A stretch of DNA of 64,000 nucleotides, taken from positions 1 through 64,000 of the IMG/VR virus record IMGVR_UViG_3300044446_000019. One strand, written 5' to 3'. This DNA is from a virus. The number at the start of each line of letters is the position of its first letter. The first letter of the stretch is position 1. The notes under the pieces were generated by a model. The model made no database searches, had not been told where the DNA came from, and saw nothing but the letters and a program-made list of their open reading frames with translations. Shown one piece after another: positions 41,737 through 64,000 of this stretch. The position numbers and the translations under genes are program-made.

Positions 41737-43651
41737 GGAGGAAGCCCTGTCGCGACAGCATTTCCCAGAGGAGACCGGCTTCGTGTGGACGCTCAGCTTC
41801 CAGCAGCGTGGAGCAGTAGCGGTGCAGAGTGACGGCCAGCTCGGGGTCCTGGAGTTGTGGCATCTCCAGGAACTCGGCGAGCGCGGGCATCTGGTCCCAC
41901 GCCCCGGTGAGTAGCTTGGAAGCACCACCAGCCTGCACTTTGACCTTGGTGTGCAGCGAATAGGCGGGAGTGTCCTGCATTGTCCGATGATGATTACCGA
42001 CTAGTCGCTTTCCGGCGACTTCGAGCGCACGCAAAACCGCCATATTCGCGACAGCAAACACGGCTTGCGTTCCGGGGACCACGGAGGCGGAAGCAGTTAT
42101 CCCAGGTGGCTGACTGGAGTTTGGTGCAGTTGGTCCACCTGGTGTGGACAGGGCCGACGAGTCTTGCGGCATCGGCGATGGTCCGGTGGGCTGGATTCCG
42201 GTAGGTGGAGCAGGGGGCGGTGGAGGACCCGCCCCCTGCTGACCGGGTACCTGTGGCGTCACGACGGTATTCGGGGGAAGAATTTCGTCGGTGTACCCGG
42301 CGATCTTGCGTACCGCTGGGATCTGGAACAGCGTCGGGTCGCGTTCCATCAGGGTGCGGGTGAAGTACATCAGGTCTTCCTCGCGACTGGGCTTGTCGCT
42401 CAGCTTGAAGTCACCAGCAAGGATGACCGCTTCGTCCGAGATGATGTGTTTTTCGTTCAGATTCAGGGCGTCCTTCAGTCGCTCCGGGCGTACGGTCAGC
42501 GGAGCGGTGTCGAACCAGAAGACGAACCGGTCCGGGTCTTCCTTGATCGCCTTCAGAGCCGGGGTCAGGTACGCCGTGGTCAGGGCGTCACAAATCCGAG
42601 TCATCAGGGGTTCAATGTGGATCTTTATATTCGCTTCTTCGACGTGCCAGGCGCTCCAGTGGTTTGCATCGCCAGTGCCTGTGAGGATCTCCGGAGCGAT
42701 ATCCATAGCCAGGGCGAAACGACGGATGGCCTCTGCGCGGAGGTCCAGCGCCTGTTTGCTGAGATCCGAACCGAAGGTGACCATCTCGATCTTGCCGAGG
42801 GCATCCATCGGTACCTCGACGAACATGGGCACGACACCTGCTGCGGTCCCCTCACCCTTCAGCGACCGGGACCCAGCTTTCATCATCGCCTGGGTGAGAC
42901 CCTCAGCCCCAGGGACAGTGACGTCGTTACTGTCGTCCGGGAAGGACGCCTCTTTCGGGATGGGAACCATGCCCGCTGAGATCAGCCGAGAATCGATCTG
43001 GGCGAAGACGTACCGGGTTAGTCGCTCGATCTCCCAGAGCATCGGCATAGCCGCACGGGTAGGCGAGTCCGCCCACAGAGAACGACGCGGATGGGGCGTC
43101 CAGACCCGGATGACAATGTCCTTGTCCAGGTCCAGTGATTCTTTAGTGCCGTCCGGATACAGCTGCTGAACGTTGCCGTTCCAACGCTTGAGCTCGGAAC
43201 AACTGACGATGTACCACTCGTCAGCTTCGTTGTCACGGACCGCGCCCCGGCCCACGATGTAGCAATCACCCGCAACAGTGAGATTGATACCCAACATCCG
43301 CAGGGCTTCCGACTGTGCCGCTGGGGAACCGAACATGTTCTCTGCAACGGCGGCGACCTTCGGCTTCTTCGTCTCCTGCTGGACGCGACCGTTCTTGTCA
43401 ACCTCAGCCACATAGATGCGGACCCTGGAGCACGCGGACCCGATCCAGTTCGCCGCGAACCTCAGCTCACCGATGATGTCGTACAGGCGCCAGACTTCCT
43501 GCTGCCACGAGTCATCACCGAAGCGATAGGTCCGCCATCCCTGCCCGTCAATGTTCCTAATCCGGGCGGCGGAGGCAATCAGTGAAGTGAGTTCCGAAGG
43601 GTGTTCCGGTTCCGGTGCGGCAACTGGGGCCTTGGGCCGGCGGATTCCCAT
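41723..43651 (-). CDS. Portal protein
   Basis: 642 residues. ELRFAANWIGSACSRVRIYV, YIVGRGAVRDNEADEWYIVS, WTPHPRRSLWADSPTRAAMP and DLRAEAIRRFALAMDIAPEILTG are hallmarks of the SPP1/HK97-like portal family in actinophages. A Pro/Gly-rich linker separates a short C-terminal helical domain. It overlaps the MuF gene by 14 bases. Confidence 0.9.
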   Translation of the reverse strand: MGIRRPKAPVAAPEPEHPSELTSLIASAARIRNIDGQGWRTYRFGDDSWQQEVWRLYDIIGELRFAANWIGSACSRVRIYVAEVDKNGRVQQETKKPKVAAVAENMFGSPAAQSEALRMLGINLTVAGDCYIVGRGAVRDNEADEWYIVSCSELKRWNGNVQQLYPDGTKESLDLDKDIVIRVWTPHPRRSLWADSPTRAAMPMLWEIERLTRYVFAQIDSRLISAGMVPIPKEASFPDDSNDVTVPGAEGLTQAMMKAGSRSLKGEGTAAGVVPMFVEVPMDALGKIEMVTFGSDLSKQALDLRAEAIRRFALAMDIAPEILTGTGDANHWSAWHVEEANIKIHIEPLMTRICDALTTAYLTPALKAIKEDPDRFVFWFDTAPLTVRPERLKDALNLNEKHIISDEAVILAGDFKLSDKPSREEDLMYFTRTLMERDPTLFQIPAVRKIAGYTDEILPPNTVVTPQVPGQQGAGPPPPPAPPTGIQPTGPSPMPQDSSALSTPGGPTAPNSSQPPGITASASVVPGTQAVFAVANMAVLRALEVAGKRLVGNHHRTMQDTPAYSLHTKVKVQAGGASKLLTGAWDQMPALAEFLEMPQLQDPELAVTLHRYCSTLLEAERPHEAGLLWEMLSRQGFLHGES

Positions 43652-44432: not shown

Positions 44433-45869
44433 TTACCACTGCGGTTGGAGCTGGGACAGGTCGTAAAACTCCTGGCCCAGGTTCCACTCCTGCGCGGAGG
44501 GTTGAGCGATCTTCATGACGCGACGCTCTCCGCGCATCAGGTGGAGGCAGCCATGAACAAGGGCATCCATCCGGTCGGGAGATTCCCTTGTGGACTCGGG
44601 ATCGAACATGGTCATCTCGGTTTCGAGGTCGTCCCACTCACCGACCATGTGTAGCCGGCCCTGTTCGCAGCGCATGGCTACCGGCTCAGCTCTTGTACGT
44701 TTGCCATGTTTCGCGTGCACAGGATACATAGATGGAGAGCTATGTTCAGGGAAAAGACCGAGAGTTATCGACTCTTTGAAGGCATCCTGCAATACTTCCG
44801 CGAGATACCTTTTGCCGAGGTTCTCCTCGTAGACGAGGGTATCGGCGCCCCACTTAGACATTGCTCGCCAGGCTGCCAAAGCTGCTGTGCGACCACTCTG
44901 TTCGACACTGGCGTCCTCAAGCACATAGAGATCGTTGTTCACGGTCCGCGCAACGACCACGATCCCGAACAGGTCGTCCTCACCGGTCAGGTTTGGGTCC
45001 ACTCCAACAATGGTGCTGACGATGTCAGTCGGGATTTCAGTCACGCGACCCTTGACTATGTCCATCCGTTTGAATAGGCCACCGGCCCCCAGTTCCAGTA
45101 GCTTCCCGTACAGCTCCTGTTGACCCAGATCTGAGTCCGCGTACCGGATCTTCAACTCCCGCAGCACATGCGCGGACAAGTTGGTCGCGTTGTCGAAAGT
45201 AGAACCCCCCATAATGTGGATGGTCCCGTCATCACGCTTCACCCACTCCTGAAGCAGCTTGATTGGCTTCGGCGTAGTGGTGGCGAAGCAGCGAGGATGG
45301 TCGTCCATCAAGTCAGTACGTAAAGACGGGAGGATCCCCTCATACCAGCTCTCATACGACTTCGGCCATTTACAGATCTCATCTACCCAGGCGCCGGCCG
45401 CGTTATAACCTCGGCCCACGTCCTCATCGTCCGCCCCTTCGGCGTAGATCCGAGACCCGTCTGGGAACAGAACCATCGGCCGTGGGCTCTGCTTATACCG
45501 AAAGTCAATGCCCCGACGTGTGAGTACGCGCAGCAGACCTGCTGGACCCTCCATACAGATCGTTCGAGTGTCAGCCAGGGTCTCACCGATCAGCAACCAC
45601 TCAGTTGGTTGCCCGTTACGGTCGAATGGATGTTGCAGAACCTTTTCCACGAGCCACTCTGCCCCTGCTCGGGATTTCCCCCAGCCGCGCCCCGCGAGTG
45701 CCAGTGCTACCAGCCAATTCCCCGGTGGTGGCACCTGCTCCGGGCGGGCTGTCCACCACCACTCCCCGCGATTGATCTCCAGCAGCATGTTCAGGGGTAG
45801 CGACCTGATCCAGCTGTCCCGCTCATGGGCAGGGAGCTTAGCCACCCGTTGTGCCAGAGATAAACCCAT
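44433..45869 (-). CDS. terL: Terminase large subunit
   Basis: 478 residues. Walker A as AGRGWGKSRAG at 59-69, Walker B with VDE at 162-164 (GAWVDEI), the C motif FATTTPKP, and the nuclease domain starting at VGVDPNLTG with later acidic residues (YEENLG, SPDRMDALVHG). It pumps DNA into the prohead with a nuclease that cuts concatemers. First gene of the late minus operon. Confidence 0.93.
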   Translation of the reverse strand: MGLSLAQRVAKLPAHERDSWIRSLPLNMLLEINRGEWWWTARPEQVPPPGNWLVALALAGRGWGKSRAGAEWLVEKVLQHPFDRNGQPTEWLLIGETLADTRTICMEGPAGLLRVLTRRGIDFRYKQSPRPMVLFPDGSRIYAEGADDEDVGRGYNAAGAWVDEICKWPKSYESWYEGILPSLRTDLMDDHPRCFATTTPKPIKLLQEWVKRDDGTIHIMGGSTFDNATNLSAHVLRELKIRYADSDLGQQELYGKLLELGAGGLFKRMDIVKGRVTEIPTDIVSTIVGVDPNLTGEDDLFGIVVVARTVNNDLYVLEDASVEQSGRTAALAAWRAMSKWGADTLVYEENLGKRYLAEVLQDAFKESITLGLFPEHSSPSMYPVHAKHGKRTRAEPVAMRCEQGRLHMVGEWDDLETEMTMFDPESTRESPDRMDALVHGCLHLMRGERRVMKIAQPSAQEWNLGQEFYDLSQLQPQW

Positions 45870-51160: not shown

Positions 51161-53719
51161 TTGAGGTTATCAGATGTAGCTAAGATGTGGCAGTCCAATG
51201 GGGTGTCGATTGTCCCAATCGTTGCCAAAAATCAGCCTGCTGTTCGCTGGAAGCAATATCAGGCCAGGATTCCCGACCTCGGAGAGATCAACGACTGGTG
51301 GGGTAACGGGCACCCATGGGGCATTGCCCTGATCTGCGGTGCCGTCTCCGGTAACCTCGAAATGACCGAAATCGAGGGACGTGCCCTCTCTGCTGCCGGT
51401 TTGACCAAGGTGGCAAATAGTGCAGACACTCTCGGTTGCGGGGAGCTGTGGGACCGACTCAGTACCGGGTTCACGCAGGCGTCGCCCTCAGGCGGATTGC
51501 ACCTTGTGTACCGGATCTCTGATCACGAAGTGCCCGGAAACGAGAAGATTGCTCACGCCGAACCGAGCCTGGACGAGAAGTCCGGCCGGATGGTGCAGCT
51601 GGTCCTCGCCGAGACCCGTGGAGAGGGAGGATATTTCGTCGGGGCCCCGTCGCCAGGTTCGTGTCACCCAAGTGGCGAAGGCTGGTTGTTAGCATCGGGT
51701 GTCTACGGCGAAGTGCCCACGATCACCTGGGATGAACGCCAGCAACTACACGAAGCAATAAGACAAGCACTCGACATCCCCCGCCCGTCCGTGTCTCCTC
51801 CGTTCGACGAATCCACTCGGGACCAGCTGACCCAAGCCCTATCCGACGTGCCAGATCTGCACAACCCCAGCTCGATCTCTCCTCACTCTGCTACCCTCCA
51901 CGAAGCAGCCCTCCAGGCGACCGCCTCCCCAGGTGTTTTGGACCGGAGGGCTGCTTCTATTTCCCCTGGTGACCATTGGTCCGCGTCCACGGACTGGGCT
52001 GACATTCTGGAACCAGAAGGATGGACCTTACTGCGGGGGCAGCACAACGTCAGCCTCGGTGAACGATTGTGGGTACGTCCAGGCAAGAACGCCCGAGAAG
52101 GACACAGCGCCAGCACTGACTATCAGGGCAAACCGGGACTGTATGTCTGGTCCACGTCGGCTGGCCTGGAGTCGGAGACTCCACTGTCCAAACTATTTGT
52201 CCTGGCGCACTACCAGTTCCACGGTGACATGAAGCTGGCCGCACAGGACTTGAAACGTCGCGGCTTCGGCACGGTGGCTCAGCCTGATCTGACGCTGGGG
52301 GAACTGGATCTCAACAGCACCAACGAAGAGCCGGCGCCGGATCCACATTTCAGTCACGACGACACCGGTAACGCGATGCGGCTCTGGCACACGGTGGGCA
52401 GGGCTCGGTTCCGCTGGGTGTACGAACAAAAAGAGGTGTATGCCTGGACCGGGAAGGAATGGGCACCGGATTACAAGGGTGCCCTGGACCGTGAGTGGAT
52501 CAAGCTCACCGAGAGCATGGAGCGGGAGGGACTTGATCAGGAGAACGCTGCCCTGATCAAGTGGGCACGCCGCAGCCGTAGCCGCGACCGGCACAACGCA
52601 GCCTTGTCGATGATGCGAGTCATGGAGGGCGCAACCATCAGCGCCTCTGAGATGAACACTGCGCCGGATCACCTGAACTTGTACAACGGTACGTACAACA
52701 TGAAGACCGGGGTCCTGGAGCCACATAACCCCGAACACCTGATGACCCGCACCATGGTGGCCAGTTACAACCCCGAGGCCACCTGTCCAAAATTTGAGCA
52801 GTTCATGGAGCAGGTGCTGCCCGATCCTGAAGTCCGCGCCTACGTGCAGCGAGCGGTCGGATACAGCTTGCTCGGAAAAGCGGACCACCGAGCGTTCTTC
52901 CTGATCCATGGTCCCAGTGGTACTGGGAAGTCGCAGTTCCTGTCCACTATGGAGTATGTATTTGGTGGGTATGGTGCCACTGCTGCGGAAGGCACCTTCC
53001 GGGTGCACGAAGGTAGTGGACCCAACAACGACTTACATGGTCTACGGGGCAAGCGGTTCGTGTCCACATCGGAGACGGCGGAGAACGCTACCTTCAACGA
53101 GAACCTGCTGAAGCGTTTGACCGGCACGGATCAGGTAGTTTCCCGCGAGATGTACCAGACCAACGTGACCTGGCGCCCCGAGTGTGCACTGTGGCTGGCC
53201 ACGAACCACCCACCACGATTCAACAGTGACGACGACGCGATCTGGAAGCGGGCCAAACTGGTCCCGTTCGTTACTCGCTTTGGCACGGACGTGCCAGAGA
53301 TTCCCAACTTCGCCCGGGACTATCTGTACGCCGAGGCCGATGGCATCTTCAACTGGGTCTTGGCAGGGTTGCACGACTTCCTGGCCAACGGGTTGCAGGA
53401 GCCAGAGGGTGTCCTGGAGGCGGCAAACAAGCACCGCCAGCAGAGCGACACGGTGGCCCGGTTCCTGGATGACCAGATCGCTGACGGCAACCTGCAAGAG
53501 GTCCCGGAGGCCACCATCCGGACGTCGGAGCTGTTCGCCATGTACGAGCAGTGGGGTAAGTCCTCCGGTGAGCGTGGGCTTGGGTCCCGCAGGTTCATCA
53601 ACCGTCTGGAATCCACTGGCCGGGCAACATACACCCGGACCAACGCCCACAGTGTCTGGAAGGGGCTCCATCGATCAGGAGTCCTGGGTGCATACCAGAC
53701 ATCTGTGGATGAAACCTGA
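51161..53719 (+). CDS. Bifunctional primase-helicase (PrimPol + D5/P4-type)
   Basis: 852 residues from a TTG after aaagga. The N-terminal PrimPol-like domain has SPSGGLHLVYR with H114, but the usual D-x-D is E70-x-E72 (MTEIEG). The C-terminal SF3/D5 helicase has Walker A IHGPSGTGKSQF near 582-593, GKRFVSTSETAENATF and ALWLATNHPPRF. It would initiate phage replication with host polymerase, as no DNA polymerase is encoded here. Confidence 0.85.
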   Translation: MRLSDVAKMWQSNGVSIVPIVAKNQPAVRWKQYQARIPDLGEINDWWGNGHPWGIALICGAVSGNLEMTEIEGRALSAAGLTKVANSADTLGCGELWDRLSTGFTQASPSGGLHLVYRISDHEVPGNEKIAHAEPSLDEKSGRMVQLVLAETRGEGGYFVGAPSPGSCHPSGEGWLLASGVYGEVPTITWDERQQLHEAIRQALDIPRPSVSPPFDESTRDQLTQALSDVPDLHNPSSISPHSATLHEAALQATASPGVLDRRAASISPGDHWSASTDWADILEPEGWTLLRGQHNVSLGERLWVRPGKNAREGHSASTDYQGKPGLYVWSTSAGLESETPLSKLFVLAHYQFHGDMKLAAQDLKRRGFGTVAQPDLTLGELDLNSTNEEPAPDPHFSHDDTGNAMRLWHTVGRARFRWVYEQKEVYAWTGKEWAPDYKGALDREWIKLTESMEREGLDQENAALIKWARRSRSRDRHNAALSMMRVMEGATISASEMNTAPDHLNLYNGTYNMKTGVLEPHNPEHLMTRTMVASYNPEATCPKFEQFMEQVLPDPEVRAYVQRAVGYSLLGKADHRAFFLIHGPSGTGKSQFLSTMEYVFGGYGATAAEGTFRVHEGSGPNNDLHGLRGKRFVSTSETAENATFNENLLKRLTGTDQVVSREMYQTNVTWRPECALWLATNHPPRFNSDDDAIWKRAKLVPFVTRFGTDVPEIPNFARDYLYAEADGIFNWVLAGLHDFLANGLQEPEGVLEAANKHRQQSDTVARFLDDQIADGNLQEVPEATIRTSELFAMYEQWGKSSGERGLGSRRFINRLESTGRATYTRTNAHSVWKGLHRSGVLGAYQTSVDET

Positions 53720-53780: not shown

Positions 53781-53969
53781 ATGGAGCAGTTCCCCGAGAT
53801 GCTCACCACCCGCGAGGTCGCTTTCCTGTTCAGGGTCTCGCGCAACACCATCCTCCGGTGGGTGGCACGGGGTTATCTGGAGGCCATCCGTCCCATGGAC
53901 GGGAAGTACCTATATCCATCCGGCCAACGAGCCATCCTTAATCAAAGGAGACTTATGAACAATGTCTAA
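53781..53969 (+). CDS. MerR/excisionase-like HTH protein
   Basis: 62 residues: MLTTREVAFLFRVSRNTILR followed by WVARGYLEAIRP and a short wing. Classic small winged-HTH of the excisionase/MerR type. Overlaps the first ParB-like gene by 8 bases. Could control partition genes or DNA architecture. Confidence 0.8.
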   Translation: MEQFPEMLTTREVAFLFRVSRNTILRWVARGYLEAIRPMDGKYLYPSGQRAILNQRRLMNNV

Positions 53970-54804
53970 GCGAAAGCAAGCTACTGCTACAGAACTCAAT
54001 ATCCACCGAGGGTCCACCCACGAAGAGGCTGACCGTTTGGGAGAATTGACAAAAGACATCCATGAAAATGGATTGAAAATGCCGATTCTTGTTGACGAGG
54101 AAATGAATATCATCGACGGAGTCCGTCGGTTCTACGCCTTCTACGTCAATCACTCAATGACAGATCCGATTCAGGTAGTTGTCTGCTCAAGGTTCGAGGA
54201 CACCTGTTCATGGCTGTCTAAAACCGTCAAGCATGGGGTGGCCGCCGTACCGGTCACGGCTCTACGAGCCTGGCAGCTGTTCAACGACACTTATCCACAG
54301 CAGAAGGAACGAGGTACTCGACTCCGTAAGCGCCGTACCGGGCTGAAGCGGAGCGAGATACTCGGCGAGGAAACGCGCTCGCGCACCATGCTGAACGAAG
54401 CGTTGGGTTTCAAGGGAGAATCCTTCCTGGCTACCGCGACGTGGATCTACAAAATGTTTGACACCTACCAAGAGGACCCGATCAAGGTCGAGAAGTTGGC
54501 CCGTATCCGACGGCAATTGGAGATCGATGAAGTAACGATCTACGAGGCCAAGGGCATGGTCAGCAAGGTCCTCAGAGGTGGCGATCTGAATGGTGACATC
54601 GTTGGGCTGAATGAGCAGCGCGGCGCTCTAGCCACTCTGTTGTCGCAACTGACCGGCATGACGAAGGGAACAGCTCGCCTCGGTGAACTGGATCCAGGAC
54701 TCACGCAGATCGAACTGCAAATGTACATAAAAGGGTTTGAGACCGCACGACGCGATCTCAATATCTTCGTTGCCAGTCTCAAGAAAAGAGTAACCACCCC
54801 ATGA
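53962..54804 (+). CDS. ParB-like protein 1
   Basis: 280 residues. Segment 37-60 (GLKMPILVDEEMNIIDGVRR) is the ParB/Srx-fold core with a GVRR box, and the following helices (SEILGEETRSRTMLNEALGF) look like an HTH region. Locally more AT-rich than its neighbours. Could bind DNA or hydrolyse CTP, but a canonical GERR(F/W) box is not preserved. Overlaps the second ParB-like gene by 4 bases. Confidence 0.7.
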   Translation: MSKRKQATATELNIHRGSTHEEADRLGELTKDIHENGLKMPILVDEEMNIIDGVRRFYAFYVNHSMTDPIQVVVCSRFEDTCSWLSKTVKHGVAAVPVTALRAWQLFNDTYPQQKERGTRLRKRRTGLKRSEILGEETRSRTMLNEALGFKGESFLATATWIYKMFDTYQEDPIKVEKLARIRRQLEIDEVTIYEAKGMVSKVLRGGDLNGDIVGLNEQRGALATLLSQLTGMTKGTARLGELDPGLTQIELQMYIKGFETARRDLNIFVASLKKRVTTP

Positions 54805-55619
54805 CCTATCCCAGCTCGAAGTACACCGAAAAGCGTCTCAATGTTGGCGACCTGGAGATTGACCGCAGGGTTCAGCGACAGGGACTCAACATCGCAAAAG
54901 TGGACAAGATCGTCGCGAAGTACAACTCGGACGCGCTGGGCATCATCACCGTGTCACACCGCAAGGATCGCTCCTTCGTGGTCGTGGACGGCCAGCACCG
55001 AGTCGAGGCCACCCGACGAGTGACCGACAACCAGGGCAACCTGCCTTGCCGGATCTTCGAGGATCTGACCCTCGCGGACGAGGCGCAGATGTTCCTGGAT
55101 CTGAACTACACCACGCTGCCTACGATGATCGACAAGTACAAGGTTCGACTCAACGTGGAGAGCGAGGATGGTGACGCCGCTCGCAGCATCGGTGAACTGG
55201 TCGGTGCGTACGGCTGGACCGTCAGCCGTACGGCGGCGGATAGCCACATCAACGCGGTGAGCGTGCTGGAGCGCCTGTATGGCCTCAGTCGCAAGATCGA
55301 GGCGGACCCGAACCTGATCCAGGTCACCATCCTGGTCATCACCCGGGCCTGGGGCATCAACCGCTACGGCGTGCAAGCTCCCATCCTGGAGGGTATCGGG
55401 CGGATGTTCGCTGAGTACGGTTCCCTCTTGGACGTGGATCACCTCATCGAGGTGATGAAGAAGTACCAGGGCGGACCCGGGACCCTGGTTGGGGAGGCGT
55501 CCCAGCTGGCCAACCTACGGCGCTGGAAGAAGTCCATGGCCGTAGCTGACATCCTGGTCAACGAGTACAACAAGGGTCGACGTACCAAGACCCTGACGAC
55601 CTGGGCCAAGCGGGCGTAA
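54801..55619 (+). CDS. ParB-like protein 2 (DUF6551-type)
   Basis: 272 residues. LNVGDLEIDRRVQRQGLNI, GIITVSHRKDRSFVVVDGQH and DGQHRVEATRRV form a ParB-N domain in the variant typical of DUF6551-like actinobacterial proteins. A C-terminal helical domain (YGVQAPILEGIGRMFAEYG) follows. No ParA is nearby. May bind parS or act as a nuclease regulator. Confidence 0.75.
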   Translation: MTYPSSKYTEKRLNVGDLEIDRRVQRQGLNIAKVDKIVAKYNSDALGIITVSHRKDRSFVVVDGQHRVEATRRVTDNQGNLPCRIFEDLTLADEAQMFLDLNYTTLPTMIDKYKVRLNVESEDGDAARSIGELVGAYGWTVSRTAADSHINAVSVLERLYGLSRKIEADPNLIQVTILVITRAWGINRYGVQAPILEGIGRMFAEYGSLLDVDHLIEVMKKYQGGPGTLVGEASQLANLRRWKKSMAVADILVNEYNKGRRTKTLTTWAKRA

Positions 55620-56825: not shown

Positions 56826-57158
56826 TCAAGCATCCTCAGAGATCATTTCCTTTGTGGAGTGATCATCTCCGTTGCCGAGTTTGATCTCCGGGAAGGCCTC
56901 CTTCTCCGGCTGGTGGAACTCGGTGGCCCGCAGCCGCAGAAGTCGCTCTTCCATCGACAAGGGCAACTTCATCCCCTTGCAGAAGGATCGGATTATCCGT
57001 TCAGTGGGTCTCCAGCGGCCGATCTCGATGAGCCCCCAGCAGCCGTTGCTGATACCGGTGAGGTCTGCGACCTCCCGCTGCGTCAGGTCTGCTGTGTGTC
57101 GGAGCTGACGCATCACCCTGCCCTCGGGGCTGGGTTCGTACTTCGGTCTATATACCAT
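56826..57158 (-). CDS. Xre-type phage repressor-like protein
   Basis: 110 residues. RQLRHTADLTQREVADLTGI, SNGCWGLIEIGRWRPTERI is a full Xre HTH, followed by a C-terminal helical tail. Transcribed from the right copy of IR1, whose 28-bp tandem repeats could be its operators. It and the 316 regulator sit behind identical promoters, an arrangement suited to a switch. Confidence 0.82.
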   Translation of the reverse strand: MVYRPKYEPSPEGRVMRQLRHTADLTQREVADLTGISNGCWGLIEIGRWRPTERIIRSFCKGMKLPLSMEERLLRLRATEFHQPEKEAFPEIKLGNGDDHSTKEMISEDA

Positions 57159-57275
57159 CCTCCCACCTTACACCCCCCCCCTCCCGTGTACCAGTGGCAG
57201 GAAACTAAAGGGGTTCATCGATGGAATGGCAGGAAACTAAAGGGGTTCATCGATATCTCCGATCCCCTGACCAGC
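57155..57275. repeat. Inverted repeat IR1, right copy
   Basis: Exact inverted copy of bases 1-121, carrying the same promoter and tandem 28-bp repeats on the minus strand. Beyond 57275 the sequence continues into the unique-looking spacer to 58268. Confidence 0.95.
57165..57193 (-). promoter_or_regulatory. Promoter of the Xre-like gene (IR1 copy)
   Basis: Mirror image of the promoter at 83-111: -35 at 57188-57193, -10 at 57165-57170, ATG at 57158, giving a leaderless transcript. Confidence 0.6.
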
Positions 57276-57289
57276 AGAAACAGGAACCG

Positions 57290-57410
57290 AGTGGCACGAG
57301 TGGCAGTTGTGTAAGTTCGATCTGGAAAAGTGTTTATATAACCGCCTAGTTGATCTAGGTAGCGCGTATATAGAAAGTCTTTCCGGAAACGAACTGCCAC
57401 TCGTGCCACT
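57290..57410. repeat. Extended imperfect palindrome
   Basis: Perfect 19-bp arms (57290-57308 with 57392-57410) enclose nested pairings: tctggaaa/tttccgga, tatata/tatata and cctag/ctagg. The whole 121-base block could fold into one long hairpin or cruciform. Candidate replication, recombination or terminus-related site. Confidence 0.8.
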
Positions 57411-57484
57411 GTCGAGGAAGATTTCATCCGTTACGTCACCAAAATGGACACTGACTTTCCTGGCCTGGTTCGGCGACCGTGGCC

Positions 57485-57865
57485 TCAGACCCCGTCTGAG
57501 GCCATCCGAGCCTCCAGTTCGGCTACCTGCGCCACCGCAGCTTCCCGCTGAGTCAGGATCGGGTCCAGATCAGGCGAATCGGACTTCGTCAGTGGTGCTT
57601 CCAGGCGATACAGCTTCGCCAACCTGTCCAGCACCCTGATCCCAGCCTCGATGAAGCGCGGATCAGGTTTCGCGAAGCTGCCGTCGACGTGTGGCTGGCA
57701 CACGGACCAGATCTGCTCCAGGCGTTGCACCAGCAGGGCCCGGACCATGGGTGCGCTGCCGGTTACTTCTTCCTCGCCGATGCCGTATTCGGTGGTTTCC
57801 AGGTCTCCCATACAGGCAGCATGTGCCTGGCAATGATGCATATCAACATGCAGTCGTAGTGCCAC
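57485..57865 (-). CDS. Putative small terminase subunit or related protein
   Basis: 126 residues. LLVQRLEQIWSVCQPHVDGS and PDPRFIEAGIRVLDRLAKLY resemble actinophage TerS-like proteins, where 'PRYLEIALRIxDRxAxLxGL' is typical. Located far from terL, in the region inferred to be duplicated. A DNA-recognition partner of packaging is possible; the match is weak. Confidence 0.5.
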   Translation of the reverse strand: MALRLHVDMHHCQAHAACMGDLETTEYGIGEEEVTGSAPMVRALLVQRLEQIWSVCQPHVDGSFAKPDPRFIEAGIRVLDRLAKLYRLEAPLTKSDSPDLDPILTQREAAVAQVAELEARMASDGV

Positions 57866-58268
57866 CAGGTATCCTGTATCCGAACACCTGTATCAGGGCT
57901 CAAGAGTAAGGGCAACGTTCTTAACAGATCGAAGAGGAGCACTGCAACAGGTGAGCTTCCGTATCAGGAACCAGTGCTATGCGGGCCCCTTAAACCGGAC
58001 AAAACCGGTTTGCCTGTTGCCTGCCCTTACATGACACATATCCCCTGTGTCCGGTTTGGGTGGTGTGCCCTGTATCAGGTTGTGGATCATGGGGGTGAGG
58101 GGATGAGTCATGATCGTTGATCTTGGTTAGTTGATCAATCGAGCGCTTGCTCTTGATCATGGATAGTGGATCATGGGGGTGATGGATCATGACTCAGGGT
58201 GACCTGAGCCCCAGCTGCCGCCCAGGAGGACTGGCCGCGCGGGTCCCTGCCCCAGCTGGGGAGTAGCA
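57866..58268. other. Repeat-rich intergenic region, possible origin or packaging site
   Basis: No gene seen. The word TGTATC followed by A/C-GG recurs (57879, 57891, 58072 and similar), aaaccggac/gtccggttt form an inverted pair (57992-58000, 58048-58056), and tggatcatgggggtga occurs twice with gagtcatgatc/gatcatgactc inverted copies. Iteron-like density suggests an origin or cos/pac site; none is proven. Confidence 0.45.
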
Positions 58269-58326
58269 GCGTCGTCAGCTGGGGCAGGGGAGGGAGGTTA
58301 GGGGAGGGAGGTTAGGGGATCGAGGG
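58269..58326. repeat. Inverted repeat IR2, left copy
   Basis: Exact reverse complement of 63943-64000 over 58 bases, reaching the end of the window, so the true length may be greater. It contains a direct repeat of a 14-base unit (ggggagggaggtta). It covers the 3' ends of the genes at 58275 and, in the other copy, 63774. Confidence 0.95.
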
Positions 58327-58559
58327 TAGGCGCCACCATCCTCCAGTCCGAGGGCGTACGCACGGTTCACGAGGTCACGGCTGTCTGCCACCTGATCTTC
58401 TCTACCGTTCTGGTACGCCTTATTCAGCGCGGCAGCCACACGGTCAGCTACCTTGCGCGTCAGCCCGGTAATTGTGTCGCTGACGCCGGAGCCCTGGTCG
58501 TTGTGCTCGTCAACAGCATGATACCCATTACGGCCATTGACCAGATATGTACGCTTCAT
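58275..58559 (-). CDS. Small hypothetical protein
   Basis: 94 residues. YLVNGRNGYHAVDEHNDQGS and a helical ADRVAAALNKAYQNGRED are typical of small actinophage proteins of unknown function. The last 17 codons lie in IR2, so its C-terminus (PPLTSLPCPS) depends on the repeat. Confidence 0.65.
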   Translation of the reverse strand: MKRTYLVNGRNGYHAVDEHNDQGSGVSDTITGLTRKVADRVAAALNKAYQNGREDQVADSRDLVNRAYALGLEDGGAYPRSPNLPPLTSLPCPS

Positions 58560-58688
58560 CGGTTATGTCCCTTTCTATGGTCAGAGTGGTCCCCGTATCG
58601 TCAACTGTAACCCCTACCCCGGAGGGGGGGGGTGTGATATAGTTGGCGCTCCGGCCGGGAATACCGGCCCATGAACATGGGAGACACC

Positions 58689-58937
58689 ATGGACTATCAG
58701 ATCTATGCCGAAACGATCGCGGCTCGCACCGGCACTAGCGTGGAAGCGCTACAGACCTACGCAGAGGCGTTGATCGGATTGGAGGTAGTCGGTGACGTCG
58801 GGTACGCGCTGGACACGGCGCTCCTGGTGCTGCGCAACGGCGACAATGACAAGCTCATCGACACCGTGCTCAACATGGAGGCGACTGAGCAGACCCAGCA
58901 GGCCAGTCGACGTTACCGAGGCCGACACATCGGCTAG
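58689..58937 (+). CDS. Small hypothetical protein
   Basis: 82 residues from the ATG after gggagacacc; an upstream ATG lacks spacing. Acidic helical (EALQTYAEALIGLEVVGDVG). First gene of the parS arm; unknown. Confidence 0.65.
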   Translation: MDYQIYAETIAARTGTSVEALQTYAEALIGLEVVGDVGYALDTALLVLRNGDNDKLIDTVLNMEATEQTQQASRRYRGRHIG

Positions 58938-59022
58938 CGATCACCGTGATGGGTCAGGGCAACCTGGCCCATCCGCGCGGTGAGTACCGGGCATCGGCCC
59001 GGTATCAAGCTAGGGAGACAGC

Positions 59023-59172
59023 ATGCGGATTGATCTCACCGGGTACGGCGCCCGGTACCGCGCATTCCTGCTGGCTGCTATAGGTCAGCTATTCAGTTCC
59101 TACCTGCTACCGGGTAGCCCTGCCTACCGCACGATGACTGCGCTACGGCGCAACGTGCCGATGGCATCATGA
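59023..59172 (+). CDS. Small hypothetical protein
   Basis: 49 residues, ATG after agggagacagc. Amphipathic with a short hydrophobic run (FLLAAIGQLFSSYLLPG). Stop overlaps the next start (ATGA). Confidence 0.55.
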   Translation: MRIDLTGYGARYRAFLLAAIGQLFSSYLLPGSPAYRTMTALRRNVPMAS

Positions 59173-59273
59173 GAGACCCATGGACCATGGGTGCGATCCT
59201 GGCCGTGGTGTTCCTGGTATCGAGCCTGGTCACGACGGCCGTGATCAGGGAGCTTGAGAAACCCCCCCGCTAG
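59169..59273 (+). CDS. Tiny membrane protein
   Basis: 34 residues with one transmembrane segment (GAILAVVFLVSSLVTTAVI) and a basic, proline-ended tail. Coupled to the previous gene. Confidence 0.5.
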   Translation: MRDPWTMGAILAVVFLVSSLVTTAVIRELEKPPR

Positions 59274-59431
59274 ACTTGACACCCCAGCCCTACTGAGCTA
59301 CTGTTTGACGTGTTCGGCGGGTACCGGCCCGATGCGCGATGCAGAGGTCGGCCCTTCGGAACCTGGCACCACTTTCCCGTGATCAACGGGCATCCTCCAT
59401 AGTGATCCACACATATAGATCTCCCGTAAAC

Positions 59432-59536
59432 ATGGCGGGCGACGCGCATTTGGCCACCGCTGTCAAAGCCGCGTCCGACCGTGTGGAGTGTTGGTTTCAC
59501 GTGAAACCAACCCTGACCATGGGAGAAAGCACATGA
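59432..59536 (+). CDS. Doubtful short reading frame over parS-1
   Basis: 34 codons from ATG 59432, overlapping the next ATG. It spans the first parS site (residues FHVKP). No ribosome site stands out. The surrounding 59274-59431 shows no other gene. Confidence 0.25.
   Translation: MAGDAHLATAVKAASDRVECWFHVKPTLTMGEST
59493..59508. promoter_or_regulatory. parS site 1
   Basis: Core GTTTCACGTGAAAC within a 20-base palindrome ttgg...ccaa. The core equals the chromosomal actinobacterial/Bacillus parS core; outer bases are G/C instead of T/A. Confidence 0.8.
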
Positions 59537-59700
59537 CACAGCCAGTTGCCACCGCGACCACGACTATCTATCAATCGCGGTTCGCTACGGCGCAGCGACG
59601 TATCGCTACCGCTATCGCCCTCGGGCTGGGGCCGGACCGGCATGACGTCCGGCAGGCGGAGCGATATCGGGGACTGCTTGCGCACGTCCCTGCCGCGTGA
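59533..59700 (+). CDS. Small basic hypothetical protein
   Basis: 55 residues, ATG after gggagaaagcac. YQSRFATAQRRIATAIALGL suggests a DNA- or RNA-binding helix. Unknown. Confidence 0.6.
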   Translation: MTQPVATATTTIYQSRFATAQRRIATAIALGLGPDRHDVRQAERYRGLLAHVPAA

Positions 59701-59722
59701 TCGTCTGATCGGTCCGCGCGGT

Positions 59723-59751
59723 CCCTGCCGGAGCCACGGACTCCGGCAGGG
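59723..59751 (+). terminator. Hairpin between small genes
   Basis: 11-bp stem ccctgccggag/ctccggcaggg with a 7-base loop; no T tract. Probably an mRNA end or stabiliser. Confidence 0.55.
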
Positions 59752-59804
59752 AGCCACGGGCGCCCGTCCACAAGGGACGGACGCGCGACCGAAGGGCAAG
59801 AACC

Positions 59805-60206
59805 ATGGATGAAGCAATGCGTACGGCACTGCTCACCGGTGACCTCGGCACGCTGCTAGAAAGTGCCGAGCCGGATGAGAGCTGGACGATTGACATCACC
59901 AACCCCGGGACGGGTGCCATGTCCGGCACTCGTAACTACCGGTTCGACAACGCCATATGGGGACTCTTCCACGATGGTGACGACAACACGCGCAAAGTTT
60001 CCTTCGTGCGGTGTCTCGACGCTGCCGACGCTGCCGCGTCGGTCACGCTGGCCATTGAGCAAGCCACGATGGCCTACGGCATCGGCGTCAAGCTGGGGGC
60101 ATTGCCTCCGGACGGTTTGATCATCAGTCACCGTCTCAAGAGTGACTCAGACATGGGCGTCTTTACGGACACCATTATCCCGACAGGGATGGACGGAACC
60201 ATCTGA
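59805..60206 (+). CDS. Hypothetical protein
   Basis: 133 residues. Mixed alpha/beta (SWTIDITNPGTGAMSGTRNY, then VTLAIEQATMAYGIGVKLGA), no recognised family. Followed by parS-2. Confidence 0.65.
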   Translation: MDEAMRTALLTGDLGTLLESAEPDESWTIDITNPGTGAMSGTRNYRFDNAIWGLFHDGDDNTRKVSFVRCLDAADAAASVTLAIEQATMAYGIGVKLGALPPDGLIISHRLKSDSDMGVFTDTIIPTGMDGTI

Positions 60207-60261
60207 CCTACGGGTCGGGCCAGCTGGACTATCAAGCGTCCAGCTGGCCACGAGGGCTACA

Positions 60262-60277
60262 TGTTTCACGTGAAACA
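60262..60277. promoter_or_regulatory. parS site 2
   Basis: Exact 16-mer TGTTTCACGTGAAACA, flanked catg/catg to make a 20-base palindrome. Lies between genes. Confidence 0.85.
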
Positions 60278-60300
60278 TGGCCCGTACCAAGGGAGACAAC

Positions 60301-60513
60301 ATGAACGACACCACGAACACTGACGCCGTGGCCGTCCACACGCTGAATCTGGCCGTGGATTTCAGCGGTGAGGACATCGGCCCCCAGGATGCGGAATTGC
60401 TCGTGTCTGTGCTGAATGACCTTCTCGCCGGTATCGGCGGCGTAGTCCGCGTGACTCCGGGTACATACGTGGCCGGCAAGACGACCACGGTCAGTAACGT
60501 TCGGGTCGCGTAG
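60301..60513 (+). CDS. Small hypothetical protein
   Basis: 70 residues, ATG after gggagacaac. AVHTLNLAVDFSGEDIGPQD and a strand-rich end. Unknown. Confidence 0.6.
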   Translation: MNDTTNTDAVAVHTLNLAVDFSGEDIGPQDAELLVSVLNDLLAGIGGVVRVTPGTYVAGKTTTVSNVRVA

Positions 60514-60543
60514 CACCACCACTCCACATGGAGGCATGGGCCA

Positions 60544-60559
60544 TGTTTCACGTGAAACA
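60544..60559. promoter_or_regulatory. parS site 3
   Basis: Exact 16-mer TGTTTCACGTGAAACA in a 28-base perfect palindrome (60538-60565) starting gggcc and ending ggccc. Confidence 0.85.
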
Positions 60560-60602
60560 TGGCCCTGTGCCACCCGATGGACGGGTGGGATTGGGGCCAG
60601 TG

Positions 60603-60773
60603 ATGGCTAAGCATGAAGCAGGCGGTAAGGACGCTGGCGGGAAGATCGGCAATCAAAACCCTAATAAGCGGGGGCGTGACGCCGATCCAACTCAGCGAGA
60701 GATTGTCCCGCATACCGGGCAACCGATTGATGACGGGAAGCACAGCGACACCAACCCGAACCGTAACAAGTAG
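60603..60773 (+). CDS. Small hydrophilic protein
   Basis: 56 residues, basic and disordered-looking (GGKDAGGKIGNQNPNKRGRD). The immediately preceding ribosome site is weak. Unknown. Confidence 0.45.
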   Translation: MAKHEAGGKDAGGKIGNQNPNKRGRDADPTQREIVPHTGQPIDDGKHSDTNPNRNK

Positions 60774-60859
60774 GTAAGGGTGGTCCGGCTGGCTATCAAG
60801 CGCCAGCCGGACACGATCCTTTGGCCAGTGTCCAAGGGACAAGATGAAGGGACCGAAGC

Positions 60860-61609
60860 ATGGTCACAAGAGATGCCCTTGTCGAGGTGTTGAGCGCCGA
60901 TCAGATGGTCACGCTCGACGCGCTCACACAGCGGGTGAAAGACTCCGCGCAGCTCATCGCGCGGGAACGACTCACGGACATAGCCGTGCGTACCGCACGC
61001 GCGGCTAGCTGGTGCGACGACTTCAGGGCCTACGCACTGAAGGTCATTGGCCGGCCGGCTGGCCCGAAGGTCAATTGGCGTATTTCTGCCCGCAACCGTA
61101 CCGAAAGGGACATGCGGGTCGAATTCCGCGACACGGACGGGCTCGACTGCTGGGGCTATGACGTCAATGGCTGGAAAGACGGGATAGGTCCTGACGGGTT
61201 CAACGCTGACGGTTGGAACGTCGACGGCTATAACCGTGAAGGGTTCGATACCGAGGGCCGCAATATGTTCCGATTCAACTCAAAGGGCCGGGATATCGAA
61301 GGTTACGACGCCAACGGCCGTAACCATGATGGACGCGACCGTGAGGGTTGGGATCAACTTGGCTTCCGCGATGGACGCGACCGTGATGGGTTCGACCACA
61401 ACGGGCGCGACATGGACGGGTATGACCGCGAGGGCGTAGATCTTCACGGTCTTCGTCGTGACGGTACGGACCAATTCGGCCGACCACGGCTAGGGTTCGA
61501 CCTCTGGGGGCGGGATGAGAATGGGTATGACCGCTACGGATACAACCGTGATAACGGTCGATACCTTACGCCCGTGCCGTTGGCCGAGCCTGTGTCGGCC
61601 GTGAGCTAG
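60860..61609 (+). CDS. Protein with a pentapeptide-like DGY-repeat domain
   Basis: 249 residues. The N-terminal ~85 are helical and basic; the rest is about 27 tandem five-residue units of the form x-G-[FYWR]-[DN]-x (for example DGFNADGWNVDGYNREGFDT). This differs from classical A(D/N)LXX pentapeptide repeats and may form a distinct solenoid or a low-complexity coat. Function unknown. Confidence 0.7.
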   Translation: MVTRDALVEVLSADQMVTLDALTQRVKDSAQLIARERLTDIAVRTARAASWCDDFRAYALKVIGRPAGPKVNWRISARNRTERDMRVEFRDTDGLDCWGYDVNGWKDGIGPDGFNADGWNVDGYNREGFDTEGRNMFRFNSKGRDIEGYDANGRNHDGRDREGWDQLGFRDGRDRDGFDHNGRDMDGYDREGVDLHGLRRDGTDQFGRPRLGFDLWGRDENGYDRYGYNRDNGRYLTPVPLAEPVSAVS

Positions 61610-61669
61610 GAAACCCCCATCGGGGGCGGGTCAGGGATTAAACCTCACAGCGGACCCTGGCCCGGCGAA

Positions 61670-61686
61670 CCGTCCACAGTGGACGG
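61670..61686. repeat. GTCCACAGTGGAC palindrome, copy 1
   Basis: CCGTCCACAGTGGACGG upstream of the gene at 61700. The same 13-base core occurs at 62618, 62664 and 63781. It contains overlapping GTCCACA/TGTGGAC halves resembling part of actinobacterial DnaA boxes. Confidence 0.8.
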
Positions 61687-61699
61687 GGAAGGGGAACAA

Positions 61700-62164
61700 A
61701 TGAACGACATCATCAGGGCTGCCGTAGTAGAGGCAGACTTCGCACCGGAGCACGTCGACGCTGTCGCGGCCTATCTGACAGCGGTGCGCAAAGAGGCAAC
61801 CGACGTGTCCGTCCAGATGTACGTGGACCGGTCCGTGTCCATTGTGGACCGTTCTAGTTATCTTGGCGCAGTGCTCTCAGCTGCCTTCGGCCAGCCGACC
61901 ACTACGGGCCGACATAACGAACCCATGTTCTTCACCACCGACGGTAGCAGGGTGGTGTATCAAACACTGGACACGGTCAGGTACAACGTGATTGGAACCG
62001 ACGTCAAGGGGGTCACGGTAGAAAACCCTGTGTATGACGGTGGTGACCCGATGCCGTTCCGCTTCGTGGAGCTGGCACCGGTGCCAGGGGAATTGACGCA
62101 GGATGATCTTGAAATGTTGTCAGAGTTCGAACCCTCGGACGACGACGACGACGACGACGACTAA
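61700..62164 (+). CDS. Protein with poly-Asp tail
   Basis: 154 residues from ATG 61700. Alpha/beta body (HVDAVAAYLTAVRKEATDVS, then MFFTTDGSRVVYQTLDTV) and a C-terminus ending in eight Asp. An acidic tail can mimic nucleic acid or occupy basic surfaces; no family recognised. Followed by parS-4. Confidence 0.65.
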   Translation: MNDIIRAAVVEADFAPEHVDAVAAYLTAVRKEATDVSVQMYVDRSVSIVDRSSYLGAVLSAAFGQPTTTGRHNEPMFFTTDGSRVVYQTLDTVRYNVIGTDVKGVTVENPVYDGGDPMPFRFVELAPVPGELTQDDLEMLSEFEPSDDDDDDDD

Positions 62165-62184
62165 CGCTCCTTGTGGGTGGGCCA

Positions 62185-62200
62185 TGTTTCACGTGAAACA
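62185..62200. promoter_or_regulatory. parS site 4
   Basis: Exact 16-mer TGTTTCACGTGAAACA inside a ggcca...tggcc palindrome. Confidence 0.85.
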
Positions 62201-62268
62201 TGGCCCGCTCACTCGACGCGTCAGCGTGTGAGTACCGTGCAACATCGTTTTGAGAGGTACCCGGACCA

Positions 62269-62499
62269 ATGGTAGTAGAAGCAGTGTTTGTTACTGCGCC
62301 GACGCTCATCCTGGCGCATGTGACCTACCAGGACGCCAACAAGGACAAGCCATCTGATGAGTGGCCTCACCGAATCGCCTACCGCGTGTGCGTATTCCTG
62401 GTCCGCCACCACGGCCGCTGGCTGTTGTGGACGGTATGTACGCCGTTGGTGCTCGTGCAACGTGCGATAAGGCGACGGAAGGGAGACAACGAGAATTGA
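62269..62499 (+). CDS. Small membrane protein
   Basis: 76 residues. Two hydrophobic stretches (VEAVFVTAPTLILAHV, WLLWTVCTPLVLVQ) around a charged hinge, basic end (RRRKGDNEN). Unknown. Confidence 0.6.
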   Translation: MVVEAVFVTAPTLILAHVTYQDANKDKPSDEWPHRIAYRVCVFLVRHHGRWLLWTVCTPLVLVQRAIRRRKGDNEN

Positions 62500-62542
62500 T
62501 CAAATGCTGGTGCCGCGTCCGGGAGCGCGGTGCCAGCCACAT

Positions 62543-62612
62543 GGGGTAGTGGTCTGTCCGCACTGGTGCGCACCAGTCAACGGGCGTGATGGTTCGATTC
62601 CATCCCACCCCA
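62543..62612 (+). tRNA. tRNA-like element with palindromic anticodon arm
   Basis: Acceptor ggggtag/ccacccc (one mismatch), a perfect T arm gatgg ttcgatt ccatc and A73. The D arm is poor. The anticodon region is a perfect 16-base palindrome actggtgc/gcaccagt, leaving only a six-base loop (tgcgca). Probably not a normal decoder. Confidence 0.5.
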
Positions 62613-62615
62613 CGA

Positions 62616-62632
62616 CCGTCCACAGTGGACGG
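62616..62632. repeat. GTCCACAGTGGAC palindrome, copies 2 and 3
   Basis: CCGTCCACAGTGGACGG just after the tRNA-like element; a further 13-base copy lies at 62664-62676 within the gene at 62640. Confidence 0.8.
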
Positions 62633-62639
62633 AGATAGG

Positions 62640-62981
62640 ATGTCCGATATGTGTATTATGGAAGTCCACAGTGGACAGCGTCAGTCGACCATGACGCAAG
62701 CTATGGCGCACAATGCTTCCACGCTCGACCGTGATCTTGACATGCTGATCGAGGTGTTGACGCGCCGTGGCGGCGTGCTCCTGGCGGCGCCCGTCCAGCA
62801 GGCACAGGACCACATTCACCGAGCCTATGCGGTCCTGCTGGACGCCTACGGTGAGGCCGTAGCGTCCGAGGTCACCGATCCCGAAGGACACGTGCACGAC
62901 CACGACCATGGCTCGGAGCGCAGCCTGGTGGACCAGGCCCACCACGACGCCAGCCTGGCGCGACGGTACGAGACACGATGA
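62640..62981 (+). CDS. Hypothetical protein with HDHDHG segment
   Basis: 113 residues, ATG after ggagatagg; an upstream frame runs through the tRNA-like element and is rejected. Helical body, then HVHDHDHG, a possible metal-binding patch. Unknown. Confidence 0.6.
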   Translation: MSDMCIMEVHSGQRQSTMTQAMAHNASTLDRDLDMLIEVLTRRGGVLLAAPVQQAQDHIHRAYAVLLDAYGEAVASEVTDPEGHVHDHDHGSERSLVDQAHHDASLARRYETR

Positions 62982-63100
62982 TTGACCGGCTGATCGAAAC
63001 GGCGTCACCGATCGCGTATCTGGTAGGAATGTTCGCCCTTGCCGTGTGGTGGGGCCGAGTGACCTTCAAACGTTGGGAGAAACGACAGGACGACGACTAG
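62978..63100 (+). CDS. Tiny membrane protein
   Basis: 40 residues, overlapping the previous stop. One transmembrane segment (PIAYLVGMFALAVWWG) with a basic then acidic tail (KRWEKRQDDD). Confidence 0.5.
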   Translation: MIDRLIETASPIAYLVGMFALAVWWGRVTFKRWEKRQDDD

Positions 63101-63107
63101 ATGAACT

Positions 63108-63176
63108 GGGCAGGGTGCCTGGCGTGCACCACGCGAACGTACGAGCGCGTGGGGGGTTCGAATCCCCTCCTGTCCA
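63108..63176 (+). tRNA. tRNA-like element with extended anticodon arm
   Basis: Acceptor gggcagg/cctgtcc (seven pairs, one G-U), short D arm, T arm ggggg ttcgaat cccct, A73. The anticodon arm is a seven-pair stem ccacgcg/cgcgtgg with a ten-base loop (aacgtacgag) rather than 5 + 7. Sits between two tiny genes. Confidence 0.5.
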
Positions 63177-63180
63177 CGTT

Positions 63181-63197
63181 CCCTCCACTGTGGAGGG
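63181..63197. repeat. CTCCACTGTGGAG palindrome (variant)
   Basis: CCCTCCACTGTGGAGGG before the gene at 63212; a variant of the GTCCACAGTGGAC family. Confidence 0.75.
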
Positions 63198-63211
63198 AAG
63201 TAGGGAGCATC

Positions 63212-63502
63212 ATGGAAAAACAGGATTGGTTTTGGGTCATATTCGGTTTGGTAGCTGCATTATGGGTCATTGCAACCGTGATCGGTACCGGGCTCGCAGA
63301 CGCACGTCAGCGCGACCGTGCCGAGGCTCAAGATGAGCGCGACATGGATGCAGCCTGGCATTGTTATGCGCTGACGGGCGAGCCTAGCCCGTCCGAGTTA
63401 CGCGCTAGTCAGGTGAATGTCGCAGAGGCACGTGACGAGAAAGAGGTGCAGACCATATTGCGCCGTGAGCTGCGCTCACCCACGCCGCCGGCTGGCACCT
63501 AA
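63212..63502 (+). CDS. Membrane-anchored hypothetical protein
   Basis: 96 residues, ATG after agggagcatc. One N-terminal transmembrane helix (FWVIFGLVAALWVIATVIG), then acidic and basic helical segments. Unknown. Confidence 0.65.
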   Translation: MEKQDWFWVIFGLVAALWVIATVIGTGLADARQRDRAEAQDERDMDAAWHCYALTGEPSPSELRASQVNVAEARDEKEVQTILRRELRSPTPPAGT

Positions 63503-63707
63503 GCCGACCACCGCACCACTGTCCCGTTCTGCCCGCGCTCGTGTGCTCGACAGAGCCGTGATCGCGTGGCGAGTCGGTAAGCCACATCGAGCGTGGGAGA
63601 TCCTTGCCGAGGCAGGGATGTCCGACTATTGGGCGCGGTTTCAGCGCACTGCCCTCCAGCACGCCCGGAGGGGTTACACCCGCGCGATGGATCGTTACGT
63701 CGCATGA
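63465..63707 (+). CDS. Hypothetical basic protein
   Basis: 80 residues if started at GTG 63465; a longer frame from 63417 overlaps the previous gene more. Basic with a helical core (DRAVIAWRVGKPHRAWEILA). Unknown; start uncertain. Confidence 0.45.
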   Translation: MSCAHPRRRLAPKPTTAPLSRSARARVLDRAVIAWRVGKPHRAWEILAEAGMSDYWARFQRTALQHARRGYTRAMDRYVA

Positions 63708-63708
63708 C

Positions 63709-63748
63709 CACAACTACCCCGGAGCCAGCAGGCTCCGGGGTAGTTGTG
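63709..63748. terminator. Perfect 18-bp terminator
   Basis: Arms 63709-63726 and 63731-63748 (cacaactacccc... and reverse) with a four-base loop, followed by ttg. Strong, possibly bidirectional. Confidence 0.85.
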
Positions 63749-63773
63749 TTGATCCGACGACACAGGAGGCACC

Positions 63774-63971
63774 ATGGCACGTCCACAGTGGACCGCAATA
63801 CAGGCGTACGATCCCGATGAGGGTAGGTGGTATGACCTTGCCGTGCTCCCTTCACAGCGAGCGGCACGCGGTCAGTTGGCTTTCTACCGTCTCACCGGTG
63901 GTAGTGGTCGACGTCATCGCCTGCTACGGACCGGTCCTACCGCCCTCGATCCCCTAACCTCCCTCCCCTAA
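63774..63971 (+). CDS. Small hypothetical protein entering IR2
   Basis: 65 residues, ATG after aggaggcacc. WTAIQAYDPDEGRWYDLAVL is the most protein-like part; the C-terminus runs into IR2 and would change if the repeat recombined. Contains a GTCCACAGTGGAC copy (63781-63793). Confidence 0.55.
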   Translation: MARPQWTAIQAYDPDEGRWYDLAVLPSQRAARGQLAFYRLTGGSGRRHRLLRTGPTALDPLTSLP

Positions 63972-64000
63972 CCTCCCTCCCCTGCCCCAGCTGACGACGC
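63943..64000. repeat. Inverted repeat IR2, right copy
   Basis: Exact reverse complement of 58269-58326, ending at the last base of the window; its true extent past 64000 is not visible. Confidence 0.95.

Follow-up and report, generated by a model that had tools for sequence, protein, structure and literature searches.

Four palindromes clustered in the small arm of an actinophage-like genome match the chromosomal parS consensus exactly, and the most plausible reading is that they are true loading sites for ParB and recruit the host protein (parS mimicry), probably so that the phage genome is inherited or positioned. The DNA analysed (the window) comprises 64,000 of the 64,011 bp of an IMG/VR viral record.

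Exact parS sites in the small arm

An exact search of the 64,011-bp record located the 14-mer GTTTCACGTGAAAC at 59494, 60263, 60545 and 62186 only, in agreement with the original prediction, and the reversed-pattern control gave no match. Three of the four copies extend to the 16-mer TGTTTCACGTGAAACA, as had also been predicted; the remaining copy, at 59493, reads GGTTTCACGTGAAACC. The bacterial chromosomal parS consensus is mainly TGTTNCACGTGAAACA (PMC7022226), and the window holds four exact 14-mer and three exact 16-mer matches to this consensus. In dinucleotide-preserving shuffled windows the mean number of matches, with mismatches allowed, was 0.16-0.25, and none of the shuffles reached the observed count. 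If the sites were randomly placed, the chance of all four falling inside the 5.6-kb arm would be ~(0.088)^4 = 6e-5.

The sites lie among short genes of the + strand, three being clearly intergenic and one overlapping a possible start codon (Table 1). The 14-bp core of site 1 ends ~25 nt 5′ of the ATG at 59533, immediately ahead of the Shine-Dalgarno sequence. Site 2 adjoins a preceding hairpin with a TATCAAGCG loop (60218-60249), and its core stops 24 nt short of the ATG at 60301. The palindrome of site 4 reaches ~40 bp when G-U pairs are allowed in the + strand transcript. The exact consensus, the excess over control palindromes and the retention of the sites in the nearest near-complete relative bear out their earlier assignment to chromosomal-type parS. 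By these sequence criteria the identity of the four palindromes as chromosomal-type parS is well supported.

Table 1. Coordinates of the parS sites and of the phage features discussed in the text.
Feature	Position	Strand	Remarks
Portal	41726-43651		
Terminase	44436-45869		
Primase/helicase	51161-53719		
Divergent ParB-family protein	53962-54804	+	280 aa; below TIGR00180 cut-off; possible phage-encoded reader of the sites
DUF6551 (PF20188)/DndB-like protein	54801-55619	+	272 aa; with GxxR; not canonical ParB
Repressor-like HTH	56829-57158		
Inverted repeat (inferred)	57155-58326	.	between large and small arms
Small single-copy arm	58327-63942	.	5,616 bp; short + strand genes; all four parS
parS site 1	59490-59511	.	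22-bp perfect palindrome GTTGGTTTCACGTGAAACCAAC
parS site 2	60260-60279	.	20-bp palindrome CATGTTTCACGTGAAACATG
parS site 3	60538-60565	.	28-bp perfect palindrome GGGCCATGTTTCACGTGAAACATGGCCC; overlaps possible ATG start at 60543
parS site 4	62179-62206	.	28-bp palindrome GGGCCATGTTTCACGTGAAACATGGCCC; intergenic, between 62164 and 62269

Genome form and relatives of the phage

Tape measure, major tail protein, exonuclease and tRNAs were found in the record, which is that of an actinophage-like tailed phage. Positions 1-121 of the contig are the exact reverse complement of 57155-57275, and positions 63943-64011 that of 58258-58326. These inverted copies at the contig ends suggest a chloroplast- or herpesvirus-like genome with a large arm of 57.0 kb, a small arm of 5.6 kb and two inverted repeats of ~1.17 kb. 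The "small arm" to which the sites had been ascribed is thus the segment between the inverted repeats (58327-63942). No integrase was detected in the scanned proteins, nor was a lysogen found, and the suggestion of an episomal prophage was not borne out.

The best portal relatives were mostly phages of Actinoplanes, Arthrobacter, Gordonia, Microbacterium and Curtobacterium, at ~27-35% identity, and no close DNA relatives were present among isolated phages. A portal search of GTDB genomes gave Dietzia and Streptomyces matches at 31-33% only and no prophage of this phage family. A count of parS in relatives had been proposed as a check on the sites, their absence from close relatives being taken to speak against them. 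Screening was carried out on 40 records found through the portal, most of which, besides G003, G007 and G020, are fragments. Only G003 (64,129 bp, portal 94% identical) carries parS, with exactly four sites at 2383, 2669, 3206 and 3964, all intergenic and confined to the small arm; the fetched ends of this genome and of the window align mostly at only ~65-83% nucleotide identity. In G007 (62,359 bp, portal 83% identical) no parS occurs in at least 5.3 kb of arm sequence up to the repeat, and the best degenerate candidate was rejected as it has three mismatches. The G020 sequence ends within the repeat and lacks the small arm. Thus the sites are not missing from close relatives, the nearest near-complete one having four as well, and their absence from the sequenced part of the G007 arm indicates that they are not essential to the lineage. 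The inverted ends match in G003 at both arms, and in G007 and G020 at the large-arm side. The orientation of the arms differs between the window and the G003 assembly, a difference that isomers, or the choice made by the assembler, would produce.

parS in other viruses and in plasmids

In IMG/VR, TGTTTCACGTGAAACA was found at at least 120 loci, as against one locus for TGTTTGACGTCAAACA and two for TGATTCACGTGAATCA, two control palindromes of equal length that form a small control set; IMG/VR contigs may be fragments, and some single parS matches in short contigs could be host DNA. Among the matches listed, at least 21 viral contigs carry 2-6 sites each, and several of these encode terminase, portal, tail protein or DNA polymerase near the sites. 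Neither ParB (TIGR00180) nor ParA (PF13614) was detected in any of the 21 multi-site contigs, most or all of the control genomes being positive. In the GenBank phage collection a site-holding 30-mer matched 327 records, led by phages of Listeria, Microbacterium, Arthrobacter and Gordonia, though related phages (e.g. 87 Listeria records) are not independent. The control 30-mer matched 78 records, all of Vibrio phages, with the left half alone matched among the matches listed.

Exact 14-mers were counted over whole INPHARED records: six in VroomVroom and in the inovirus bajarodino virus 3, four in vB_BcoS-136, three each in Ranunculus, DSS3P8 and Arian, two each in Woes, Orchid, Talia1610, Greenhouse and Bacchae, and one each in Wilde, B103, Ariadne, CMP1 and A511. 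Isolated phages with parS thus include those of Gordonia, Arthrobacter, Bacillus and Ruegeria and an inovirus. No match to the ParB_N domain was obtained in 13 of these 16 records; three matched, one of them over the cut-off. Plasmids gave 26 matching records in 7.3 Gb, ~3x more DNA, and several of these are chromosome-sized. Plasmids often bring their own partition systems.

The densest array seen was six exact parS in a filamentous phage genome of 6.2 kb (PQ006097.1). In Arthrobacter phage Ranunculus (PQ362686.1, 9786-12009) three sites fall within coding sequence, that of the portal and of the capsid maturation protease, showing that parS is not always intergenic.

Candidate phage-encoded readers of the sites

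The original prediction credited the phage with two ParB-like proteins and no ParA. No ParA (PF13614) was detected in the record or its relatives, with 14 of 14 control genomes positive. Actinobacteriophages with parABS-bearing extrachromosomal prophages encode their own ParA and ParB. Canonical ParB (TIGR00180) was likewise not detected in the record, the best score being 20.5 bits against a cut-off of 58.45. The protein at 53962 is nevertheless ParB-like: a profile search of solved structures (PDB) found ParB, Noc and Spo0J; the N-domain of its predicted fold (mean pLDDT 81.8) matches ParB/Noc at Z ~10-11, and the predicted helical middle matches the parS- or NBS-bound DNA-binding domains of ParB/Noc weakly (Z ~4.6-4.9). 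The ParA-binding motif LG(R/K)GL is absent from this protein. Orthologues were found in portal-reached records and persist in G007 and G020; a search of IMG/VR with back-translated patterns gave no confirmed relatives.

The second protein, at 54801, belongs to DUF6551, and to that extent the prediction did not hold. DUF6551 fusions in phages are reported to bind nucleotide (PMC12704722). The 54801 protein resembles the phage ParB-CTPase-fold proteins with DUF6551 described there in its PF20188 membership and in keeping GxxR; the difference is that this family has no known link to parS. Inspection of the nucleotide-binding residues, which had been proposed as a further check, showed GxxR (the P motif) to be kept in both proteins. 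In the 53962 protein it reads GVRR (residues 53-56, in the N-domain), with G53 and R56 invariant in six sequences.

Palindrome arms and possible transcript hairpins

At all sites the 14-bp core is constant, and the flanks vary between sites yet remain complementary. Perfect palindromes measure 22, 20, 28 and 28 bp in the window, 20, 20, 30 and 30 bp in G003, 36 and 30 bp in Gordonia phage Woes and 32 bp at one site in Orchid. The G-U pairs that lengthen the longest palindromes (62186 in the window, Woes, Orchid, and 17372 in VroomVroom) place the wobble on the transcribed strand. Intergenic stem-loops number 15 in the 5.6-kb small arm, compared with 1-5 per 5.6 kb of the large arm. In other viruses parS mostly lies within 14-20-bp palindromes without long arms, and such arms therefore do not explain the core. 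Perfect palindromes of 20-36 bp here and in some Gordonia phages suggest an added transcript hairpin; beyond the core, the long palindromes are probably under a second constraint, acting on the transcript.

No T run follows any of the four sites, although a G+C hairpin is present, and a reading of the sites as intrinsic terminators was ruled out.

Proposed recruitment of host ParB and its alternatives

ParB-CTP loads at parS, after which it spreads and makes contact with ParA (PMC12704722); SMC loading is also assisted by ParB in several bacteria (PMC7022226). The cell should treat a phage bearing parS as it does an origin region. Once the phage has infected, clamps of host ParB-CTP would be loaded onto the parS cluster and spread over the small arm. 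The loaded ParB would tie the phage genome to the ParA- and SMC-based segregation or positioning machinery of the host, and the genome could then be inherited or placed with the nucleoid in a carrier, episomal or developmental (e.g. sporulating) state. The exactness and clustering of the sites, their conservation in G003, the enrichment of parS in viruses and the absence of ParA and canonical ParB from the phage were observed; binding of the sites by host ParB and a benefit to the phage are the presumed parts of the model. Against it stand the absence of sites from the sequenced part of the G007 arm, a host known only through distant actinobacterial relatives, and the ParB-family protein that the phage itself encodes. 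The second constraint on the long palindromes, probably at the RNA level, is also unexplained by partition alone.

Two uses of the sites had been proposed, a hitch-hike on host ParB and a centromere of the phage itself, and the former fits the data better. The 53962 protein could recognise the sites, which would then serve as a private centromere or, in the manner of KorB or Noc, as operators, with host ParB uninvolved. Its conservation in the phage family, the intact GxxR nucleotide motif and the structural matches to ParB/Noc, in the N-domain and, weakly, in the middle, keep it a live rival, and what remains of the centromere proposal rests on these structural matches. Host ParB is the likeliest reader since G007, with no parS in its sequenced arm, retains the 53962 orthologue, and since such proteins are rare elsewhere: almost all viral contigs with parS lack ParB, and most other parS-bearing viruses lack such a protein. 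The protein falls below the curated ParB cut-off and has no ParA to work with, and an exact chromosomal consensus would be a coincidence for so divergent a protein. The private-reader explanation is accordingly weakened and is considered unlikely. Host ParB might instead be bound as a decoy or regulator, through titration, disturbance of segregation or SMC loading, or silencing of the small arm by spreading. Several sites per genome, multiplied through replication, would suit this role, as would the position of two sites just 5′ of the Shine-Dalgarno sequences of small genes; small phage genes are often used for host takeover. Many phages, however, have one to a few sites per genome. The present data do not tell a decoy or regulator from partition, and such a role is given a small but appreciable probability.

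That the palindromes are mainly transcript hairpins, serving as punctuation or leader stem-loops between small genes with the parS likeness secondary, would account for the richness of the small arm in intergenic stem-loops, for flanks that differ but stay complementary and for G-U extensions on the transcribed strand. It is nonetheless improbable, as the core is invariant while the stems vary, the parS palindromes of other viruses are mostly short, and the two control palindromes, equally capable of forming hairpins, are almost absent from viruses; the lack of T runs 3′ of the sites also rules out classical terminators. Chance, or contaminating DNA from a host chromosome, a reading to which single matches in short IMG/VR contigs lend some weight, was rejected for the window and has a negligible probability: no shuffle reaches the count, the sites lie between phage genes and recur in G003, and parS is present in isolated, fully sequenced phages.

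Relation to known systems

Recruitment of host ParB by phages is, to our knowledge, represented by one case, phi29. Host Spo0J/ParB assists the entrapment of phi29 DNA in spores (Meijer et al. 2005, as cited in PMC9437464). The likeness to this family is a phage without ParAB that uses host ParB, as the present phage would. B103 of the phi29 family has one exact parS. The difference is that there a single site occurs in an unrelated small phage, whereas here four are clustered in an actinophage. The mobile element SGI1 carries mimics of the parS of its helper IncC plasmid, which bind the plasmid ParB, stabilise SGI1 and destabilise the helper (PMC10954446). Both are mobile elements with the parS of another replicon, using its ParABS (putatively so in the present phage); SGI1 mimics plasmid parS, whereas the virus carries the chromosomal type. 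Resident-type parS copies on an element without ParAB, the feature of mimicry, are found in the phage, with the identity of the host deduced from relatives.

The palindrome is identical over 14-16 bp to bacterial chromosomal parS, which also occurs in several copies within a few kb (PMC7022226); the phage differs in lacking parA and canonical parB and in holding several copies within longer perfect palindromes. A centromere-type site on an actinophage is shared with the parABS systems of extrachromosomal actinobacteriophage prophages (Dedrick et al. 2016, listed in PMC12704722; PMC7157519), but no ParA is present in this phage. The Gordonia phage comparison PMC5559632 does not mention parS sites in Woes or Orchid. 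No description of clustered chromosomal parS in an actinophage, or of its recurrence in unrelated viruses without ParAB, was found in the open-access papers searched. Mimicry of parS is thus already known in kind; the apparently new elements are the clustered chromosomal array in an actinophage and the recurrence in unrelated viruses.

The presence of parS in many unrelated viruses suggests wide viral borrowing of the host chromosome-sorting protein. There is an even chance that parS mimicry has evolved repeatedly as a general strategy of viruses, in which tailed and filamentous phages of ParB-bearing hosts enlist host ParB through centromere clusters, as a partition system, a developmental entrapment signal or a decoy, and that some actinophages use the site additionally as the core of a transcript hairpin. 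If chromosomal parS is common to many unrelated viruses without ParAB, chromosome segregation would be a widely exploited host system, and "lytic" phages would have a route to persist in dividing or sporulating cells.

Other features of the small arm and the repeat

A 126-aa ORF in the inverted repeat (57485-57865) is kept at ~74-78% nucleotide identity in G003, G007 and G020 and has no PHROG match. The 249-aa protein encoded at 60860-61609 consists largely of repeated short units of the GRDxDGYDxxG kind; no family match was obtained for it. Two sequences of the small arm, at 62542-62612 and 63107-63176, are tRNA-like in having a T-arm (GGTTCGA) and acceptor pairing. They were not called by ARAGORN and gave weak tRNA-Sec matches well below the Rfam threshold; the Rfam search over 57000-64000 yielded sub-threshold matches only.

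Hairpins with the identical loop TATCAAGCG on differing stems occur in the window and in G003 (60218-60249 and 60783-60812 in the window; 2410-2439 in L182); all are intergenic, and two lie directly beside parS. A second repeated intergenic palindrome, GTCCACAGTGGAC, is present in four copies near gene starts, at 61672, 62618, 62664 and 63781, with CTCCACTGTGGAG in addition at 63182 in the same region (61671-63800).
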